Shown here: positions 26,491 to 63,290 of the stretch, piece by piece | How the letters are laid out: every line of letters begins with the position of its first letter | Numbering within the stretch: the stretch's first letter is position 1 | Assembly: GCF_021023085.1 (NCBI RefSeq) | Contig: NZ_PGCK01000002.1 | Span: 1-64,000, forward strand | Source of the DNA: Methanooceanicella nereidis | Lineage (GTDB): Archaea; Halobacteriota; Methanocellia; Methanocellales; Methanocellaceae | Direction of reading: 5' to 3' | Length of the DNA stretch: 64,000 nucleotides | The notes under the pieces: model-generated | The model's database searches: none | What the model was told of the DNA's origin: nothing | What the model saw: only the letters and a program-made list of their open reading frames with translations | Translations under genes and position numbers: made by a program

Positions 26491-27152
26491 CACCATAAAG
26501 GCGAGTAAGGAACACTAAACTGCTAACCGCAAAATCTTTTATGAGCGGGGTCTTGCTCAGGTTTTAAGAATGAAAAAGTGTCTTACTTACTGGTCTTTGA
26601 GATGAAGTTTTTATGGTTGTGCCTGTCAGATGGCAGGTAGGCACGTAACCTCACAGAAACACGGAAACACAAAATTTTTTTTATATGATTTTTTAAGGGC
26701 ACGAAAACCCTAAGAATTTACTCACTAAACCACGAAGGGCTCTAGTATCACTGTCAACGCACTAACACCTCTAACGCCCGGCTCAACGCACCAACCTCTC
26801 TAAGTCACCAACGCTAAAACAAGACACGAACATTCCCCAAATCACTAAAGTTTAATATCCCGGTCTGTGTTCCCCTTGACCTATAACAGGGATATTGATC
26901 GTGTAAGCGTCAACCGTGCAGTTAAAATTTCGTGTTTTTGGGAATATTCGGGCCTTGTTTTAGCGTTGGTGAATTAGAGCACTTCGAGCATTAAGCCGTG
27001 CATTAGAGACTTTAGTGCGTTGACGGTGATACTAGAGCATTTGTGGTTTGGTGAGTGAACCTTTGGGTTTTCGTGACCTTAAATTCTAAAAAAAAATTTG
27101 TGTTTCCGTGTTTCTGTGAGGTTACGTGCCTGCCTGCCATCCGACAGGCACA
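26491..27152. repeat. Family B inverted repeat without gene, with left flank
   Basis: A left arm from about 26621 (GCCTGTCAGATGGCAGG) to 26860 is followed by a ~75-base core (26861-26935) and an inverted right arm (26931-27152, ending CATCCGACAGGCAC). A flank of ~90 bases outside the left arm (ATGAGCGGGGTCTTGCTCAGG) recurs at 59.06 kb, preceded here by an A-like unit at 26491-26535. The core is the reverse complement of the core at 59.39-59.46 kb. Short frames inside encode only repeat-derived peptides, so this is non-coding. Confidence 0.85.
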
Positions 27153-27228
27153 ACTGCAGAACATCGATACCATAATAGATGTTACATGCAAGTCTTTACA
27201 GAGACCATTAAAAAGTTTTTCATGGGAG

Positions 27229-27330
27229 CGCACAAAGGCAAACAAGGAACACAAAGAACTTTTTTAGAAGATTAGCATTTTTTAAAAAAATTTTGTGGTC
27301 CTTACTCGCCTTCGTGCGCTTCGTGGCGAA
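27229..27330. repeat. Family A minimal inverted pair
   Basis: One left unit (GCGCACAAAGGCAAACAAGG) and one right unit (TACTCGCCTTCGTGCGCTTC) face each other across ~45 bases of AT-rich core containing ACTTTTTTAGAAGATTAGC. It directly follows the family B copy, joined by a segment GAGACCATTAAAAAGTTTTTC also seen at 59.74 kb. Confidence 0.85.
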
Positions 27331-36054: not shown

Positions 36055-36263
36055 ATTTAACCCTCCACTAATAATGAAAACTTATTTTTGTGTTTATTTT
36101 TATGTTCTGTGAGAAACAGGCGGTGAAAGCAGGATATACCAAGATTTTTAACGTTTGGTGGTTCGTCCGTCTTTGTTATTTTTATACTCAGGGAATATTG
36201 ACAGGAGCGGACTGCTATCAAATCGCCACGTACACTTATGCAATGATCGCCCCAGAATTTTCA

Positions 36264-36375
36264 ATCACTAATCGCACAAAGGCGAACAAGGAACACAAAG
36301 GACTTCCTTTAGAAGAATAGTATATGCTAAAAAAATTAGTGGTCCTTACTCGCCTTCGTGCGCTTAGTGATTAAC
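36264..36375. repeat. Family A minimal inverted pair
   Basis: A left unit (ATCGCACAAAGGCGAACAAG) and right unit (CTTACTCGCCTTCGTGCGCT) are inverted around a ~45-base AT-rich core; the ends read ATCACTAA/TTAGTGAT. It is the simplest, single-unit version of the family. Confidence 0.85.
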
Positions 36376-36416
36376 CTGCGCGATTTTGTTTGTCGCCATG
36401 TATAAAAAATATTAGA

Positions 36417-40207: not shown

Positions 40208-40302
40208 CCTGCTAAAGGGATACCCCTGCCCACCTTTTTTATCTTTTTTATACGCTGCATTAAAGTATGATGAACGGTTAATTACTCGGGGAGATAGGTC
40301 CT

Positions 40303-40773
40303 ATGTCTGACGAATTTTTCATGAGGGCGGCCATAGAGAAAGCCAGGGAAGGCATCAAAGAAGGCCAGACACCGTTCGGAGCATGTATAGTGAAGGACGG
40401 TAAGATCATAAGCTCAGCGCATAACCTTGTCTGGGAAAACACGGACATCACGGCTCACGCTGAGATAATTGCCATCAGGGAAGCATGTGAAAAATTGAAC
40501 ACTATTGATCTTTCGGGCTGTGAGATCTATACTACCTGTGAGCCCTGTACTATGTGCTTCAGCGCCTGTCACTGGGCGAAGATAGGGAAGATCGTATACG
40601 GCGCGCTTATCGAGGACGCTAAGAAAGCCGGCTTTAGCGAGCTAACTATACCGAATGAGGATATGAAAAGGCTCGGGAATAGCCCTGTGGAGATAGTCGG
40701 GAATTTTATGCGGGGAGAAGCGCTGGAGCTTTTCAGGGAATGGGAGAAAAAAGGAGTTAAAAGAGTCTATTGA
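40303..40773 (+). CDS. Nucleoside/guanine deaminase (CDA superfamily)
   Basis: A 156-residue zinc deaminase. Zinc-binding HAEIIAIREA (His, catalytic Glu) and CEPCTMCFSAC (two Cys) are intact, with the N-terminal RAAIEKAREGIKEGQTPFGA of the GuaD/TadA-like group. The lack of a TadA-specific N- and C-terminus and the C-terminal FRGEALELFREWEKKG favour guanine deaminase or a related nucleobase deaminase. SD GGGGAGAT precedes ATG. Confidence 0.87.
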   Translation: MSDEFFMRAAIEKAREGIKEGQTPFGACIVKDGKIISSAHNLVWENTDITAHAEIIAIREACEKLNTIDLSGCEIYTTCEPCTMCFSACHWAKIGKIVYGALIEDAKKAGFSELTIPNEDMKRLGNSPVEIVGNFMRGEALELFREWEKKGVKRVY

Positions 40774-40830
40774 TATAACATGCCCGGTATTTATTAGCAG
40801 GATCCCAAATTATTAGGCCAGTATAAAATT

Positions 40831-41040
40831 GTACACAAAGGGCTCGAAGGAACACGAAACTGCTAACCACAAAGCGCACAAAGGCAAACAAGGAACACAA
40901 AACTGCTAACCACAAAGCGCACAAAGGCAAACAAGGAACACAAAACTGCTAACCACAAAGCGCACAAAGGCGAACAAGGAACACCAAACTGCTAACCACA
41001 AAGCGCACAAAGGCGAACAAGGAACACAAAGGATTTTTAA
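40831..41040 (+). repeat. Family A tandem array, 43-bp period (left arm)
   Basis: Four units with a 43-base period (the GCG of GCGCACAAAGGC recurs at 40874, 40917, 40960, 41003), preceded by a degenerate unit from 40831. Each unit reads roughly AACTGCTAACCACAAA then GCGCACAAAGGCAAACAAGG. The array runs up to the GxxExxY gene's end and is inverted relative to the array at 41617. Confidence 0.92.
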
Positions 41041-41066
41041 AAAATAAAATTGTAGCATATTTTAAA

Positions 41067-41525
41067 TTAATAGACTATCCGGGAAATGCCATCTCTGAGA
41101 TGCTGTGCATTAAAATTAACTATAAGCCCTACTCTGTTACCGGATAGTTTCAGATAGGTTATCAATTGTGATTTATGAAGAGGTAGTATTGAGTCAATGG
41201 CCTTAAGTTCGATAATTATCTGATTCTCGACTAACAAGTCCAGCCTTAATCTGGATCGGATCTTAGTGCCTTTATATTTTAATGGGATCTCAACCTGTGA
41301 TTCTGAGAATATGCCCCTCATTCTTAACTCTTCCAACAAGCAATCCTCATAGACACTTTCCAGCAATCCCGATCCGGTCTCATAATGTACGCTAAAACAT
41401 GCATCTACGACCTCTTTAACTATCCTTTCTGTCTCCTCAGGTATAGGTTGAAAATCCCGTGCTTTTCTCTCATTAAGAACATATTCAGCAACCCTTCTTC
41501 CAGAACGTTCCTCATCAAAATCCAT
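41067..41525 (-). CDS. GxxExxY protein, intact (PD-(D/E)XK-like)
   Basis: A 152-residue protein of the GxxExxY family (PDDEXK_3). The name-giving motif is in GSGLLESVYEDCLLEELRM. The nuclease-like core has LRLDLLVENQIIIELKAID (Asp...Glu-x-Lys) and the hallmark end LPLHKSQLITYLKLSG, then VGLIVNFNAQHLRDGI. Function is unknown; nuclease activity is plausible but unproven. ATG 41525 or 41531 is the start. It lies exactly between inverted family A arrays. Confidence 0.9.
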   Translation of the reverse strand: MDFDEERSGRRVAEYVLNERKARDFQPIPEETERIVKEVVDACFSVHYETGSGLLESVYEDCLLEELRMRGIFSESQVEIPLKYKGTKIRSRLRLDLLVENQIIIELKAIDSILPLHKSQLITYLKLSGNRVGLIVNFNAQHLRDGISRIVY

Positions 41526-41616
41526 TATCATCACCAAACAATAAATTTTTAATACAAAATTATGAGAAAAAGTATTAAACATTAACAATGACCAATCCGA
41601 AAATAATAAAAAAATT

Positions 41617-41771
41617 GTGTACCTTGTTCGCCTTCGTGCGCTTCGTGGTTAACAGTTTCGTGTACCTTGTTCGCCTTCGTGCGCTTCGTGGTTAACAGTT
41701 TCGTGTACCTTAGTCGCCTTCGTGCGCTTCGTGGTTAACAGTTTCGTGTACCTTAGTCGCCTTCGTGGTAA
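41617..41771 (-). repeat. Family A tandem array, 43-bp period (right arm)
   Basis: Units start at 41617, 41660, 41703 and 41746 (last truncated), period 43, each GTGTACCTTGTTCGCCTTCG then TGCGCTTCGTGGTTAACAG. This is the reverse complement of the array at 40831-41040, so the GxxExxY gene is bracketed by inverted arrays. Confidence 0.92.
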
Positions 41772-41795
41772 AATAATAGAGATTTGTAACAATTA

Positions 41796-44700
41796 TTAAC
41801 GCGCTGATGATGATTCTTTTGTTTCATAGACGGGCAGCATCACTACGAACCTGCAGCCTTTGGTATAGTCCCCTTCTACGCGGTCCTCTACCCAGAAACG
41901 CCCGTTGTAATCATCCACCAGTATCTTTATCAGGCATAGCCCGAAGCCTTTGCCTGACTCCCGTGTCCTGGCAAGAGACAGCCTTTCGAACAGCTTTGTT
42001 TTTATATCATCCGGTATTCCTGGGCCGTTATCCTCCACCATCACCTTGTAATACTCCCTGCCCATGTCGCAGACCTTTTTGAGTATTATGTTAATGGTCA
42101 GCGGTCCTGTGGAGTGTTTTATCGCATTGCCCACAAGGTTAGAGAAGACATCCTTGATCAATTCGTTGGCCAGTACATAGCAGCCTATGACAGGGATATA
42201 GTTTATCGTGATCTCCCTGCCGGGTATCTCCGCATATTGCTTCACCACGTCCTGTAAGACTACACCGAGATCCATCACCATAGGCTTGATCTGGCCCGTG
42301 CGCTCTCTCTGTATCTTCTTGACGTTCTCTATTAGCTTGGAGTTACTCCGTAACATCTCTATAGGCTTCTCCAGCATGGTCATATTATCTTTTTCGAGTA
42401 TCCCCTGCGTTTTAAGGATGTCAAGTGCCATTTCAAGGTATCCCATGGCGATCTGGTTGAGGTTATTGATATCATGGCCCATCAGATCCACGTATAGTTC
42501 AGACTGTGCCTTTGCCTCTTTTAGCTCTTCTTCCGTACGCTTGCGCTGCGTTATGTCAAGATTTATCCCTACCCAGGAAGTTATATCGCCTTTTTCATCG
42601 CGGATCGGCACTCCGCGGGATAACAGGATATGGCATTTTCCGTCAGCCCCTATGATACTATACTCATAATCCCAGAAACAGGCTGTATCCATACACATTT
42701 TCCAGTCGTTTTTCGTTCGCTTCCTGTCCTCAGGCGTAAGAATATCCATCCACCCATATCCTTTACACTCTTCCATGGTCTTGCCTGCCATTTCGAGGAA
42801 AGACCTGCTTAAATATTCCATTCCGCCATCCGGACCGGTTATCCAGACGCCATAAGGTATGAGTTCCCCTATGGAGCGATACCTTTCTTCGCTTTCCCTG
42901 AGCGCCTTTTCAACCTTATCGCGCTCGGTCATATCCCTGGCAGCGGCGAACACGCCTATTACGTTACCATACTCGTCGCGATAGACTGATGCGTTATAGA
43001 GGACTGGTATGATGTGGCCGTCCCTGTGCCGGATCTCAAGGCGGTAATCAGTTACGAAACCCTCCTTGAACGCTTTCCTGTAACCCTCCCGGGCCTTCCC
43101 GGGATCCATGAAATAGTCAGAGAAATCGGTGCCTATAAGCTCATCTCGAGAGTACCCGGTAACTTTCTCGGTCGCCATGTTAACATCGGTGATCTTACCG
43201 CCGGGGGATATCGTCACAAGAGGGTCGAGACTCGCTTCGATCAGGCTGCGGTTATAAGCGTTGGCTAGCTTTAAAGCCCGTTCGACAATATCGCGCTCGG
43301 CCATATCCCTGGCCGCGGCGAACACGCCTATTACGTTACCATACTCGTCGAGATATACAGACGCGTTATAAAGGACAGGTGTGATATGGCCGTCCCTGTG
43401 CCTGATCTCAAGACGGTAGTCCTTTACCAGCCCTTCTTTGAACGCTTTTCTATATCCTTCCCTTGCCATTTCCGGATCGGTGAAATAATCAGAGAAATCC
43501 GTCCCTATCAGTTCATCACGGGAATAACCTGTAACGATTTCCGTGGCGATATTGACGTCGGTGATCTTGCCCTCGGGCGAAATGGTCACAAGAGGATCAA
43601 GGCTTGCCTCGATAAGGCTGCGGTTGTACGCGCTGGCAAGCTTTAGTGCATCTTCCGCCATCCTGAGCTCGGTGACATCCCTGGCCGCAGCGAACACTCC
43701 TATGACTTCACCTGACTCGTCCCGATAGACTGACGCATTATAGACTACGGGAGTAATATGGCCATCCTTGTGCCTGATCTCCAGGCTATAATCCTTAACG
43801 GAGCCTGTTTTGAACGCTATCCTGTAGCCCTCTCTCGCCTTCTCCGGGTCCAGGAAATAGTCAGAGAAATCGGTGCCTATAAGCTCTTCCCGTGCAAAGC
43901 CGGTGATCTTTTCAGTAGCGGCATTGACATCGGTTATCTTACCATCGGGAGAGATCGTGACAAGAGGATCCAGGCTTGACTCTATAAGGCTGCGGTTATA
44001 TTCATTGGCGCATTTTAAAAATCTCTCATACTCTTTATGCTCGGTCATATCTCGCCCCACTGCCTGGTACTCGATGACTTCGCCCTTTTCATTAAAGAAC
44101 GCGTGGTTTATCCACTGCATCCATTTGATCTTTCCATCCGGAAGAACAACACGCTCTTCCAGTGTCTTCAGGGGATTCTCAGGAGAAAGAGAATAAATTG
44201 TATCAATAACTAATTGCCGATCTTCAGGCTCGACCAGGGGCAGGAAATTTTTGCCCAAAAGCTCTTCCTTCGTCTTTTCGAAGTACCTGGCATACGCATC
44301 GTTCACGAACGTCAGGAGGAGATCGGGAGTGAACCTGCATATCAGCTCAGTCTGGTCCTGGACTATGCGCCGATACTTTTCCTCACTCTCTTTTAAGCCT
44401 TTCTCGGCCTTTTTACGCCGGCTGATGTCTCTGACAAAAGCGCAGTGGAAATCTTCGTCATGGAAAGTGAATTTATAAACGGATACCTCGACCGGGAAGA
44501 TCCTTCCGCCTTTAGTCTTATGCTCTGATTCGAATTTGCAGGGGGATTTTATCTCGATCTCTTTCCAGTGACTCGGCCATCGTTCTTTTGTGAATAGCGG
44601 GTCGATGTCCCACACTTTTAAGGATTGTAACTCCTTGCAGGTATATCCTAAAGAGTTGCAGGCAGCGTCGTTGACATAGTGGAAATTACCTTCGATGTCC

Positions 44701-45281
44701 ACCAGGAATATCGCGTCGGCGGCCTTGTCCACAAGGAACTGGTCAAGCTTTAACTCTTCCTCGAATTTCTTACGCTCGGTGATGTCGGTGATGAAGCCTT
44801 CGAGCATCATCTCTTTTTCTTTAAATGAATATACTCCGCGTCCCTGCTCCCATACCCACTTTTCTTTTCCCGTGGCGGTTTTTATGCGGTAGATTATCCT
44901 GTAAGGCTCGTGTTTTTCCAGTGCCTTTTGTATGTTCGTCCATACATGCTCTTGATCTTCGGGGTGTATCAGGTCATTGTATGCGAGCTTGTTGTTATGT
45001 ATAAGGTCGGACGGGAGATATCCTGTGATCTGATAGCAGCCTTCGCTCACGAACTCCATCGTGAAATCTTTGTCGTTGCGGCAGCGGTAGACCATGCCTG
45101 GGAGGTTGCTTATGAGTGTTGAGAGAAATCGCTGGCTTTCTTTTAGCGCGTCTTCGGCTTCTTTTTGTTTTCTTCTTGCTTCCTCGAGGCCGTTCACGCG
45201 GCTGCGAAGCTCATCGAGTTCATTTTTTAGCTGGTCGAGGGTTTTGTCGTTATCGCTGGCTTCGCTTTTGTTATCGGGCAT
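41796..45281 (-). CDS. Soluble histidine kinase with seven PAS domains
   Basis: A 1161-residue sensor kinase without membrane spans. After a short coiled coil it has seven PAS domains, near residues 45-170, 175-295, 300-420, then three near-identical 124-residue repeats (428-551, 552-675, 676-799, starting YNRSLIE), then 805-925. The kinase domain follows: a HisKA-like LYVDLMGHDINNLNQIAMG (phospho-His) and HATPase boxes N (VGNAIKH), G1 (DNGPGIPDD) and G2 (GKGFGLCLI). The HDINN phospho-acceptor is typical of methanogen sensor kinases. No response regulator is adjacent. Confidence 0.93.
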   Translation of the reverse strand: MPDNKSEASDNDKTLDQLKNELDELRSRVNGLEEARRKQKEAEDALKESQRFLSTLISNLPGMVYRCRNDKDFTMEFVSEGCYQITGYLPSDLIHNNKLAYNDLIHPEDQEHVWTNIQKALEKHEPYRIIYRIKTATGKEKWVWEQGRGVYSFKEKEMMLEGFITDITERKKFEEELKLDQFLVDKAADAIFLVDIEGNFHYVNDAACNSLGYTCKELQSLKVWDIDPLFTKERWPSHWKEIEIKSPCKFESEHKTKGGRIFPVEVSVYKFTFHDEDFHCAFVRDISRRKKAEKGLKESEEKYRRIVQDQTELICRFTPDLLLTFVNDAYARYFEKTKEELLGKNFLPLVEPEDRQLVIDTIYSLSPENPLKTLEERVVLPDGKIKWMQWINHAFFNEKGEVIEYQAVGRDMTEHKEYERFLKCANEYNRSLIESSLDPLVTISPDGKITDVNAATEKITGFAREELIGTDFSDYFLDPEKAREGYRIAFKTGSVKDYSLEIRHKDGHITPVVYNASVYRDESGEVIGVFAAARDVTELRMAEDALKLASAYNRSLIEASLDPLVTISPEGKITDVNIATEIVTGYSRDELIGTDFSDYFTDPEMAREGYRKAFKEGLVKDYRLEIRHRDGHITPVLYNASVYLDEYGNVIGVFAAARDMAERDIVERALKLANAYNRSLIEASLDPLVTISPGGKITDVNMATEKVTGYSRDELIGTDFSDYFMDPGKAREGYRKAFKEGFVTDYRLEIRHRDGHIIPVLYNASVYRDEYGNVIGVFAAARDMTERDKVEKALRESEERYRSIGELIPYGVWITGPDGGMEYLSRSFLEMAGKTMEECKGYGWMDILTPEDRKRTKNDWKMCMDTACFWDYEYSIIGADGKCHILLSRGVPIRDEKGDITSWVGINLDITQRKRTEEELKEAKAQSELYVDLMGHDINNLNQIAMGYLEMALDILKTQGILEKDNMTMLEKPIEMLRSNSKLIENVKKIQRERTGQIKPMVMDLGVVLQDVVKQYAEIPGREITINYIPVIGCYVLANELIKDVFSNLVGNAIKHSTGPLTINIILKKVCDMGREYYKVMVEDNGPGIPDDIKTKLFERLSLARTRESGKGFGLCLIKILVDDYNGRFWVEDRVEGDYTKGCRFVVMLPVYETKESSSAR
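42885..44000 (-). repeat. Three tandem 372-bp PAS-coding repeats
   Basis: Units begin at 44000, 43628 and 43256 (minus) and each encodes a 124-residue PAS domain, mostly identical, showing recent duplication or gene conversion within the kinase gene. Confidence 0.85.
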
Positions 45282-45441
45282 GGATACTGCCTGATTTAAT
45301 ATATAATAGTCATTGACCTTAATATTATTGAAAAAAATATTAAGATTGGATTAAAATTACTGAATATTAGAAATAATTCGAGAAATAGGGTGTTTTATTT
45401 TATGCTTTCAACTTGAACTATATTGTTGATCTTGTGGTTGT

Positions 45442-45691
45442 GCCTGACGGATGGCAGGTAGGCACGTAACCTCACAAAAACACGGAAACACTAAAATTTT
45501 TTATATGATTTTTTAAGGGCACGAAATTCTCTAAGAGTTACTCACGAAATCTCTAAGGCTCTAGTATCACTGTCAATGCTCTAACACCCCTAATGCTCGG
45601 CTTAACGCTCAAATATCTCTAAGTCACCAACGCTAAAACAAGGCACGAACATTCTCCAAAACACGAAAGTTTAATATCCCGGTTTGTGTTG
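45442..45691. repeat. Family B left arm (with GxxExxY gene)
   Basis: About 250 bases from GCCTGACGGATGGCAGG to TTAATATCCCGGTTTGTG, matching the arms at 26.6 and 59.2 kb. It ends 15 bases before the GxxExxY pseudogene stop and is inverted to 46211-46461. Confidence 0.88.
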
Positions 45692-45706
45692 TAAAAAATT
45701 TGCGTT

Positions 45707-46110
45707 TTAGTTAATTATTCTTGTTATTCCCTTTCCTATGTTCTGTTCGTTGAAATTTATCAATAGGCCGAGTCTTTTTCCGCTAAGCCTTAAGTAGTTG
45801 AGTAATTGTGCTTTGTGTATAGGCTGTACCTGGTCTGTGGATTTGAAGTCCACTACCAGGCAGTCGTCGACTAGCATGTCCAGGATGAAATACTCATCAT
45901 CATACACGATGCCGTCATACACTATAGGTATCTTGATCTGTGTCTTGACATTGAACCCTCTGCTTCTGAGTTCTTTAACCATGAATCTCTCATAGGTCTT
46001 TTCAGGAAGCCCGACCCCAAGCCTTTTATGGATGGTTAAGCCGAATCCACAGTATATTTTGCTGCTGTTTCAACGATATCAGGTAACTTCTCGTATTTTC
46101 TTTCCATCAT
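45707..46110 (-). pseudogene. GxxExxY gene broken by one frameshift
   Basis: A second GxxExxY gene between inverted family B arms. Starting at ATG 46110 (with GGTGATC upstream) the frame reads MMERKYEKLPDIVETAAKYT and hits TAA at 46036-46038. One frame over the protein continues at once: LTIHKRLGVGLPEKTYERF (GxxExxY motif LPEKTYE), then LDMLVDDCLVVDFKSTD and PIHKAQLLNYLRLSG to the end at 45707. A single base gain or loss near 46040-46055 restores a ~134-residue protein. Its core has Asp in place of Glu (DFK). Confidence 0.85.
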
Positions 46111-46210
46111 GATCACCTTAACAAAACAATACTAATTTGCTATTAGTTGCAATAAAGTATTATAAGTTTATCCATCAGACTAAAAAAGTGAACAGGTATA
46201 CGATCATTGA

Positions 46211-46461
46211 ACAACACAAACCGCGCCATTAAACTTTAGTGTTTTGGAGAATGTTCGGGCCTTGTTTTAGCGTTGGTGAATTAGAGAAGTTAGTGCGTTG
46301 AGCCGAGCATTAGAGGTGTTAGAGCGTTGACAGTGATACTAGAGCCTTCGTGGTTTGGTGAGTAATTTTTAGAGATTTAGAGCCCTTAAAAAATCATATA
46401 AAAAATTTTGTGTTTCTGTGGTTCTGTGAGGTTATGTGCCTACCTGCCATCCGTCAGGCGC
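46211..46461. repeat. Family B right arm (with GxxExxY gene)
   Basis: Inverted copy of the 45442-45691 arm, about 250 bases, ACACAAACCGCGCCATTAAA to CTGCCATCCGTCAGGCGC. With the left arm it frames the GxxExxY pseudogene and its own promoter region. Confidence 0.88.
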
Positions 46462-46490
46462 AATTATTCTCTTTATAAAGCGCTAATACG

Positions 46491-58994: not shown

Positions 58995-59046
58995 ATACAT
59001 CAGATAATTAATCGGGTAAAATAGATCACTCATAGTCCCACAACTT

Positions 59047-59684
59047 TTTCACCACGAAATCTTTGATGAGCGGGTTCTTGCTCAGGTTTTAAGAATGAAA
59101 GAACGTGTCGTACTTACCCGGTCTTTGAGATGAAGTTTTTTATGGTTATGCCTGTCGGATGGCAGGTAGGCACGTAACCTCACAGAAACACAGAAACACA
59201 AAAAATTTTTTATATGATTTTTTAAGAGCCCCAAGACCCCAAAATCTTACTCACTAAATCACGAAGGGCTCCAGTATCACCGTCAACGCACTAACACCTC
59301 TAACGCCCGGCTCAACGCACCAACCTCTCTAAGTCACCAACGCTAAAACAAGACCCGAAGATTCTCCAAGGGCACGAAAATTTAACTGCACGGTTGACGC
59401 TTACATGATCGATATAATCCTTGATGGGATCAGGGATACACAAACAGCGGTTTTAAACTTTTGTGCCTTGGAGAATCTTCGGGTCTTGTTTTAGCGTTAG
59501 TGAATTAGAGCGCTTCGAGCATTAAGCCGTGCATTAGAGACGTTTGTGCGTTGACGGTGATACTAGAGCCTTCGTGATTTCGTGAGCATTTTTTGTGATT
59601 TAGTGACCTTAAAAAATCATATAAAAAAATTTGTGTTTCTGTGTTTCTGTGAGGTTACGTGCCTACCTGCCATCCGACAGGCAC
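59047..59684. repeat. Family B inverted pair without gene, with left flank
   Basis: Left flank 59047-59149 (AATCTTTGATGAGCGGG, matching 26.53 kb), left arm 59150-59394, core 59391-59459, right arm 59451-59684. The core is inverted relative to the 26.86 kb core while the flanks keep the same order. Non-coding. Confidence 0.87.
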
Positions 59685-59757
59685 AACGCCAGAACTCAAT
59701 CACAGAACAGATGTAATATGTCCATTTTAACTGAGACCATCTAAAAGTTTTTCATGG

Positions 59758-59910
59758 GAGCACACAAAAGCGAACAAGGAAAACAAAGGACTTTTTAGTA
59801 TATTAGCTTATACTTAAAAGAATTTTGTATACCTTATTCGTCTTCGTGCGCTTCGGGTTTAACTGTTTAGTGGTCCTTTGTGTGCCTTTGTGCGCTTAGT
59901 GGTGAAAAAA
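59758..59910. repeat. Family A inverted pair, degenerate
   Basis: Left unit ACACAAAAGCGAACAAGG and two right units (CCTTATTCGTCTTCGTGCGC, GCCTTTGTGCGCTTAGTGG) around a core with GGACTTTTTAGTATATTAGC. It directly follows family B at the same spacing as at 27.2 kb. Confidence 0.8.
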
Positions 59911-62860: not shown

Positions 62861-63290
62861 CGCCACAAAGGCAACCAGGGGCACGATTTTTTAACCACTA
62901 AGCGCACGAAGGCGAATAAGGACCACAAAACGTTAACCACAAAGCGCACAAAGTCGAAAAAGGAACACGAAGGACTTTTTAGAAAAAGCATACTCATAGT
63001 ATAAAAAAAATTTTAGTGTACCTTATTCGCCTTCGTGCGCTTCGTGGTTAACAAAATTTGTGTACCTTATTCGCCTTCGTGCGCTTCGTGGTTAACAAAA
63101 TTAGTGTACCTTATTCGCCTTCGTGCGCTTCGTGGTTAACAAAATTTGTGTACCTTATTCGCCTTCGTGCGCTTCGTGGTTAACAAAATTAGTGTACCTT
63201 ATTCGCCTTCGTGCGCTTCGTGGTTAACAAAATTAGTGTACCTTATTCGCCTTCGTGCGCTTCGTGGTTAACAAAATTAGTGTACCTTCG
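62861..63290. repeat. Family A inverted pair with expanded 44-bp right array
   Basis: A left arm of about two and a half units (62861-62980; TTAACCACTAAGCGCACGAA) faces a right array whose units GTGTACCTTATTCGCCTTCG start at 63016, 63060, 63104, 63148, 63192 and 63236, with a partial at 63280, all 44 bases apart. Between them is the AT-rich core GGACTTTTTAGAAAAAGC. Units alternate between AAAATTT and AAAATTA linkers. No spacer between units, so not a CRISPR. Confidence 0.92.

Follow-up and report, generated by a model that had tools for sequence, protein, structure and literature searches.

The locus studied here raises the question of why a small gene of the GxxExxY family lies between two facing tandem arrays, and whether gene and arrays form a single unit. 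It is found in a window of 64,000 nucleotides from Methanooceanicella nereidis, the window being the whole stretch of DNA analysed. The first-pass annotation had placed the gene between two facing 43-bp arrays, and this placement is borne out by TRF, an inverted-repeat search and profile searches. The element has the following parts.

40834–41030, minus strand: left inverted tandem array, downstream of the gene, with a 43-bp unit repeated about 4.3 times and CACAAAG-type heptamers.
41067–41525, minus strand: GxxExxY gene of 152 aa, PD-(D/E)XK superfamily (TIGR04256/PF13366), Cas4-like predicted fold, under purifying selection.
41526–41614, no strand: AT-rich leader from the gene start to the right array, from direct reading of the sequence.
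41617–41767, plus strand: right inverted tandem array, upstream of the gene, with a 43-bp unit repeated 3.5 times and CTTCGTG-type heptamers.

TRF delimited the left array at 40847–41030 (period 43, 4.3 copies, 97% matches) and the right array at 41617–41767 (period 43, 3.5 copies, 98% matches). The inverted-repeat search paired arms of 153 nt at 40877–41029 and 41615–41767, which are 85% complementary and have 585 nt between them. The description as inverted tandem 43-bp arrays thus holds, but not that of the same unit in opposite orientation: the arrays are 97–98% uniform internally and only about 85% alike across the arms. Since each array is homogeneous while the arms differ, we infer from the sequence that the arrays expand and contract independently. 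GxxExxY is the sole ORF within the element, which encodes no member of a known transposase family. A PAS-type histidine kinase-like gene at 41796–45281 contains a 372-bp tandem repeat of about 2.9 copies (42917–44000).

The window protein scored 136.7 bits against TIGR04256 (cut-off 35, E 4.4e-40) and 133.8 bits against PF13366 (PDDEXK_3; cut-off 22, E 4.7e-39). In an alignment of 63 sequences, G51, G53, E56, Y59, D96, E106, K108, Q120 and Y124 are invariant, and the last five are the PD-(D/E)XK and QxxxY residues of RecB/Cas4-type nucleases. The best PDB match of the AF2 model (pLDDT 89.9, pTM 0.79) by Foldseek was SSO0001 (4ic1; probability 0.99, E 5.6e-3, TM 0.49), a Cas4-family exonuclease, followed by lambda exonuclease; the match is moderate, and the resemblance to a nuclease fold is one of predicted structure with a moderate E value. 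A sequence search against the PDB found no relative. From these results, GxxExxY is predicted to be a Cas4/lambda-exonuclease-like PD-(D/E)XK nuclease. It resembles Cas4, RecB and lambda exonuclease in its predicted fold and in the catalytic D...ExK and QxxxY residues, but is much smaller (~120–150 aa), has no invariant cysteines in its alignment and lies in inverted-repeat elements. The dN/dS ratio was 0.09 between the window gene and its copy on contig 12, and 0.09–0.24 between GxxExxY copies, which indicates that the protein is selected for function. No PADLOC-DB family matched GxxExxY, and its reading as an anti-phage defence system was rejected on this ground. No PHROG family matched either. 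Carriage by phages or conjugative plasmids was likewise rejected, as GxxExxY had no phage match and occurred in only eight plasmid-collection records, all typed as non-mobilizable.

Gene-free copies of the same arm family had been listed at 27.2, 36.3, 59.8 and 62.9 kb. All four are real, but those at 27.2 and 59.8 kb are interrupted by a second, gene-less inverted-repeat composite of ~695 bp. The window also contains a second GxxExxY element that was absent from the first-pass annotation and lies 4 kb from the element with the intact gene.

26510–27330: gene-less copy of the window gene's arm family, with a nested gene-less second-family composite (26533–27226) placed seamlessly in a heptamer unit.
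36261–36376: gene-less short hairpin of the window gene's arm family, with a single unit in each arm, core of about 45 nt, RNA fold z of −6.1.
45424–46463: second GxxExxY element (L004), of the other arm family, with arms at 45424–45692 and 46211–46463 and a gene at about 45716–46048 on the minus strand, the N-terminus of which is out of frame.
59046–59910: gene-less copy of the window gene's arm family, with a nested gene-less second-family composite (about 59057–59758).
62863–63288: gene-less copy of the window gene's arm family, with two units on one side and six on the other.

Across the genome of M. nereidis, TIGR04256 gave seven matches, two of them from one gene, and thus six genes. The window gene and the copy on contig 12 (L001) are both flanked by tandem arrays whose units are related. 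Three further genes (L003, L004 and the broken L006) lie between 250–290-bp inverted arms of a second family, and form near-identical dispersed copies with unrelated flanks; the sixth, L005, is not flanked by arms. About 40 sites belong to the first arm family, 2 gene-bearing and 38 gene-less, the latter mostly with a conserved AT-rich core of 33–42 nt. The second family, with 74 arm matches, comprises 37 elements, of which 3 carry the gene and 34 do not. Between the paired first-family arrays of this genome, GxxExxY was the only ORF found. A related archaeal genus offers an orthologous site at which the gene lies between the arms in one genome (L231, G265), and a gene-less hairpin with the same flanks is present in another (L219, G236). 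The shared arms, the copy numbers in both families and this orthologous site support the earlier proposal that the gene sits at the core of an inverted-repeat element and that the copies without a gene behave like derivatives of this element. The combination of terminal inverted repeats with copies that carry or lack the gene is also a feature of MITE/TIR transposons.

A scan of 84,980 species genomes yielded 80 GxxExxY loci in at least 21 phyla. Inverted repeats (E ≤ 1e-4 within 300 bp) flanked 47 of 69 GxxExxY genes and 4 of 171 other ORFs on the same contigs (Fisher p 4e-28). The expectation that such repeats flank GxxExxY more often than other genes was therefore confirmed, and the repeats are not equally common beside unrelated genes. 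One of the four control ORFs with repeats is itself another GxxExxY gene, and one is probably of the S23p type, by reading and without a profile. When flanks were cross-paired between loci, inverted repeats appeared in only 17 of 333 combinations, and the arms are thus locus-specific pairs. At least two inward-facing CRCRRAG repeats on both sides were present at 39 of 73 testable genes and at 0 of 944 control spans (Fisher p ~2e-50). Intergenic hairpins are common in general, and the arms might be no more than bidirectional terminators of the ordinary kind, or repeats that surround a small gene by chance; none of our results favours this explanation, which both sets of controls contradict and which we find scarcely credible. 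The association is not universal: about 30% of the genes, including L005 and L013, have no detectable arms, so that genes without detected flanking repeats do exist beside the bracketed majority. Long inverted repeats, of other sequences, also enclose nearly all GxxExxY genes in three further genomes of the family, and near-identical dispersed copies there, the gene-bearing L018/L019 and L011/L014/L016, define the ends of the elements. Mapped on the protein tree, the heptamer type of the arms changed 28 times, compared with 37.4 ± 1.8 changes after shuffling (0 of 300 shuffles) and 35.8 ± 2.0 after shuffling within phyla (0 of 300). The arm type thus tracks the protein tree, also within phyla, which argues that gene and arms travel together. 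In the open-licence literature on GxxExxY, PF13366, TIGR02436 and the repeat strings, we found no prior description.

GxxExxY loci occupy gaps between genes of like orientation, often within operons. Among 62 loci with both neighbours called, the left neighbour was on the strand of the gene at 50 and the right neighbour at 48; 46 loci have a long ORF on either side, the two being co-oriented, and most of the gaps measure 20–150 bp. Junctions tested with profiles involve trpE (L078), trpG (L114), leuC–leuD (L101), carA–carB (L120), T2SSE–T2SSF, lytB–squalene-hopene cyclase and transketolase–GAPDH, and those identified by annotation are fabD–fabG and ade–mannose-1-phosphate guanylyltransferase. 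The trpE–trpG junction is common to four betaproteobacteria (L078, L087, L111 and L114; flanks of L087 and L111 assigned by eye), and leuC–leuD to two Bacteroidota (L080 and L101; flanks of L080 by eye). In Roseibacillus ishigakijimensis (L051), the methionine synthase MetH is distributed over two ORFs, covering profile positions 100–337 and 341–1231 and thus divided near position 338, with the GxxExxY gene in the gap. A homing-type endonuclease could explain the reused junctions and the split metH: it would target conserved junctions in operons and spread through the repair of breaks, and the arms would be secondary. Most loci occupy differing junctions, however, and the gene-less hairpins have dispersed to many non-homologous sites, unlike homing; this explanation seems to us very unlikely.

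The gene-plus-arms unit is thus widespread, co-inherited and dispersed, is accompanied by gene-less derivatives, and is located at operon junctions. Its recurrence at conserved junctions in at least 21 bacterial and archaeal phyla, together with its many gene-less derivatives, points to an undescribed and very widespread selfish mobile element. With a probability of about 0.58, we consider the GxxExxY gene and its inverted CRCRRAG arms to be one selfish mobile unit of ~0.5–1 kb, with the nuclease as its sole protein. Most likely, it is a selfish inverted-repeat element that encodes a nuclease and inserts at operon junctions with no duplication of the target, and we infer that movement is driven by the nuclease through its action on the arms. 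In such a mechanism, the arms would extrude as a hairpin or cruciform, or pair in single-stranded form at the replication fork. The nuclease would recognise, and cut at, those CRCRRAG repeats that belong to its own type of arm, and host repair would join the freed or copied element into another break, leaving no target duplication. Gene-less hairpins would be internal-deletion derivatives, mobilised in trans by an intact copy, and the arms may fold in the operon transcript, shielding host genes from the insertion.

The target-site duplication of a transposon/MITE-like element, which the first-pass annotation had suggested looking for, did not appear: in 33 gene-less first-family copies, the score of a copy's own flanks equalled that of cross-paired flanks (2.45). 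One junction in an archaeal genus (L235) is occupied by a gene-bearing element in G198 and by a gene-less heptamer hairpin in G283, and is free of the element in six other relatives; the intergenic sequence there is too diverged for a base-exact junction, and an empty site that corresponds perfectly to a gene-bearing copy was not obtained. Gene-less second-family composites of ~695 bp (CCCATGAA...CAAAGATT) were found at one point of the first-family heptamer units, between GTGCGCT and TCGTGGTG, at 21 loci (among L344–L375). Joining the flanks restored the intact unit with 0 extra bases in 18 of the 19 composites with a match, and the insertion of these composites is apparently site-specific and without target duplication. 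One composite (L346) lies in the array type of L001, which makes independent insertions likely.

The elements resemble pairs of MITEs and autonomous transposons in having inverted repeats at their ends, a few copies with the gene and many without it that share arms, an AT-rich core and an intergenic position. They differ in having no detected target-site duplication, in arms that are tandem arrays which expand and contract, and in encoding only a PD-(D/E)XK protein in place of a DDE, HUH or serine transposase. With the REP/RAYT (REPIN) system they share dispersed intergenic palindromes tied to a single-copy-type enzyme gene that is flanked by them. The RAYT enzyme is a Y1/HUH transposase, whereas the enzyme here is a predicted Cas4-like PD-(D/E)XK protein, and the gene-bearing copies are themselves multicopy.

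A further parallel is found in the intervening sequences of 23S rRNA genes. In Coxiella, such a sequence contains an S23p ORF, terminal inverted repeats and heptamer repeats, is excised by RNase III, and has been proposed to be the remnant of a mobile element (PMC4990558). GxxExxY loci likewise have an ORF between inverted repeats with tandem short repeats, and share with the intervening sequences of Coxiella and Leptospira the short length, the single small ORF, the tandem heptamers and a strong RNA stem. They differ in lying outside rRNA, in encoding a PD-(D/E)XK protein and not the four-helix bundle, in the heptamer CRCRRAG, and in having many copies per genome with gene-less derivatives. 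Being outside rRNA and without target-site duplication, the element is assigned neither to the intervening sequences nor to the MITEs, its closest known kinds. S23p (TIGR02436) genes themselves, in archaeal MAGs (L171, L173, L180 and L184), and a probable S23p gene in L103 (2472–2828) occur between inverted arrays of other heptamers (TAGCTCA, ACTAGCC, CTAAAYY and CATGATR); no S23p/TIGR02436 ORF was found in the genome of M. nereidis. The two kinds of ORF in equal architecture may be alternative enzymes for one mode of life, or cargo.

These parallels raise the alternative of an RNA-level module, in which the transcript stem is cut out by RNase III-type enzymes and insertions are neutral, mobility arises by recombination, and the protein has an RNA-related or other role. 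The RNA folds are very strong (z of −19.5 for the window element, and −10.9 and −6.1 elsewhere, the last for the 36261–36376 hairpin), and the co-orientation with the host operon, the Coxiella layout and the heptamer arms of the S23p loci fit as well. Set against this, the predicted fold resembles that of a DNA nuclease and all catalytic residues are conserved, the window element is adjoined by protein genes and does not lie in rRNA, no Rfam family matched positions 40300–42300, and RNA excision alone does not explain the dispersal. We judge an RNA-level module to be unlikely.

Among 296 genomes of the phylum, at least three matches to the hairpin pattern were present in 8 of 27 genomes with GxxExxY and in 9 of 269 without (odds ratio 12, p 2e-5). 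The hairpin-richest genomes, G150 (170 matches), G300 (134) and G261 (83), had no detected GxxExxY gene, while G267 had 87 matches and one gene; the gene is thus not needed to keep the hairpins, at least now. Such genomes would be expected if the CRCRRAG hairpins were moved by another enzyme or by recombination, with GxxExxY as cargo, hairpin parasite or maintenance nuclease. The S23p genes, which are not PD-(D/E)XK nucleases and have the same architecture, and the seamless insertion of gene-less composites at one point of the heptamer unit, in at least 18 copies, would agree with this. It accounts less well for the presence of the gene between arms far above chance, for an arm type that tracks the protein tree even within phyla, for the enrichment of hairpins in genomes with the gene, and for the finding of no other ORF in the core in the genome of M. 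nereidis. A cargo or parasite role is therefore somewhat unlikely in our view.

The reading as a selfish, nuclease-encoding element can be extended, tentatively and as a possibility that falls short of probable, to a domain-spanning class of mobile elements that had gone unrecognised, in which a solitary Cas4/lambda-exonuclease-like nuclease would recognise CRCRRAG hairpins and move copies with and without the gene into operon junctions, leaving no target duplication; a parallel class would be based on S23p and other heptamers. Proteins are very commonly annotated as GxxExxY (PF13366) of "unknown function", and the architecture found in at least 21 phyla provides the family with a testable role. 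This link would account for where the abundant CRCRRAG hairpins of genomes and metagenomes come from, and offers a counterpart to 23S rRNA intervening sequences, the mobility of which is an open question. If the nuclease does mobilise the elements, a PD-(D/E)XK enzyme would be carrying out transposition with no classical transposase involved.

Hairpins at L251–L266, in the related archaeal genus, are embedded in larger repeated units, the outer ends of which are like TAGGACTTACGCGGTG; these resemble MITEs of conventional insertion sequences. As arms there are part of larger repeated units, another transposition system may contribute. Several GxxExxY elements of one archaeal genus have a multicopy coding sequence of ~580 bp (L219, 1860–2445; also L220, L221, L223 and L224) within ~1.5 kb.
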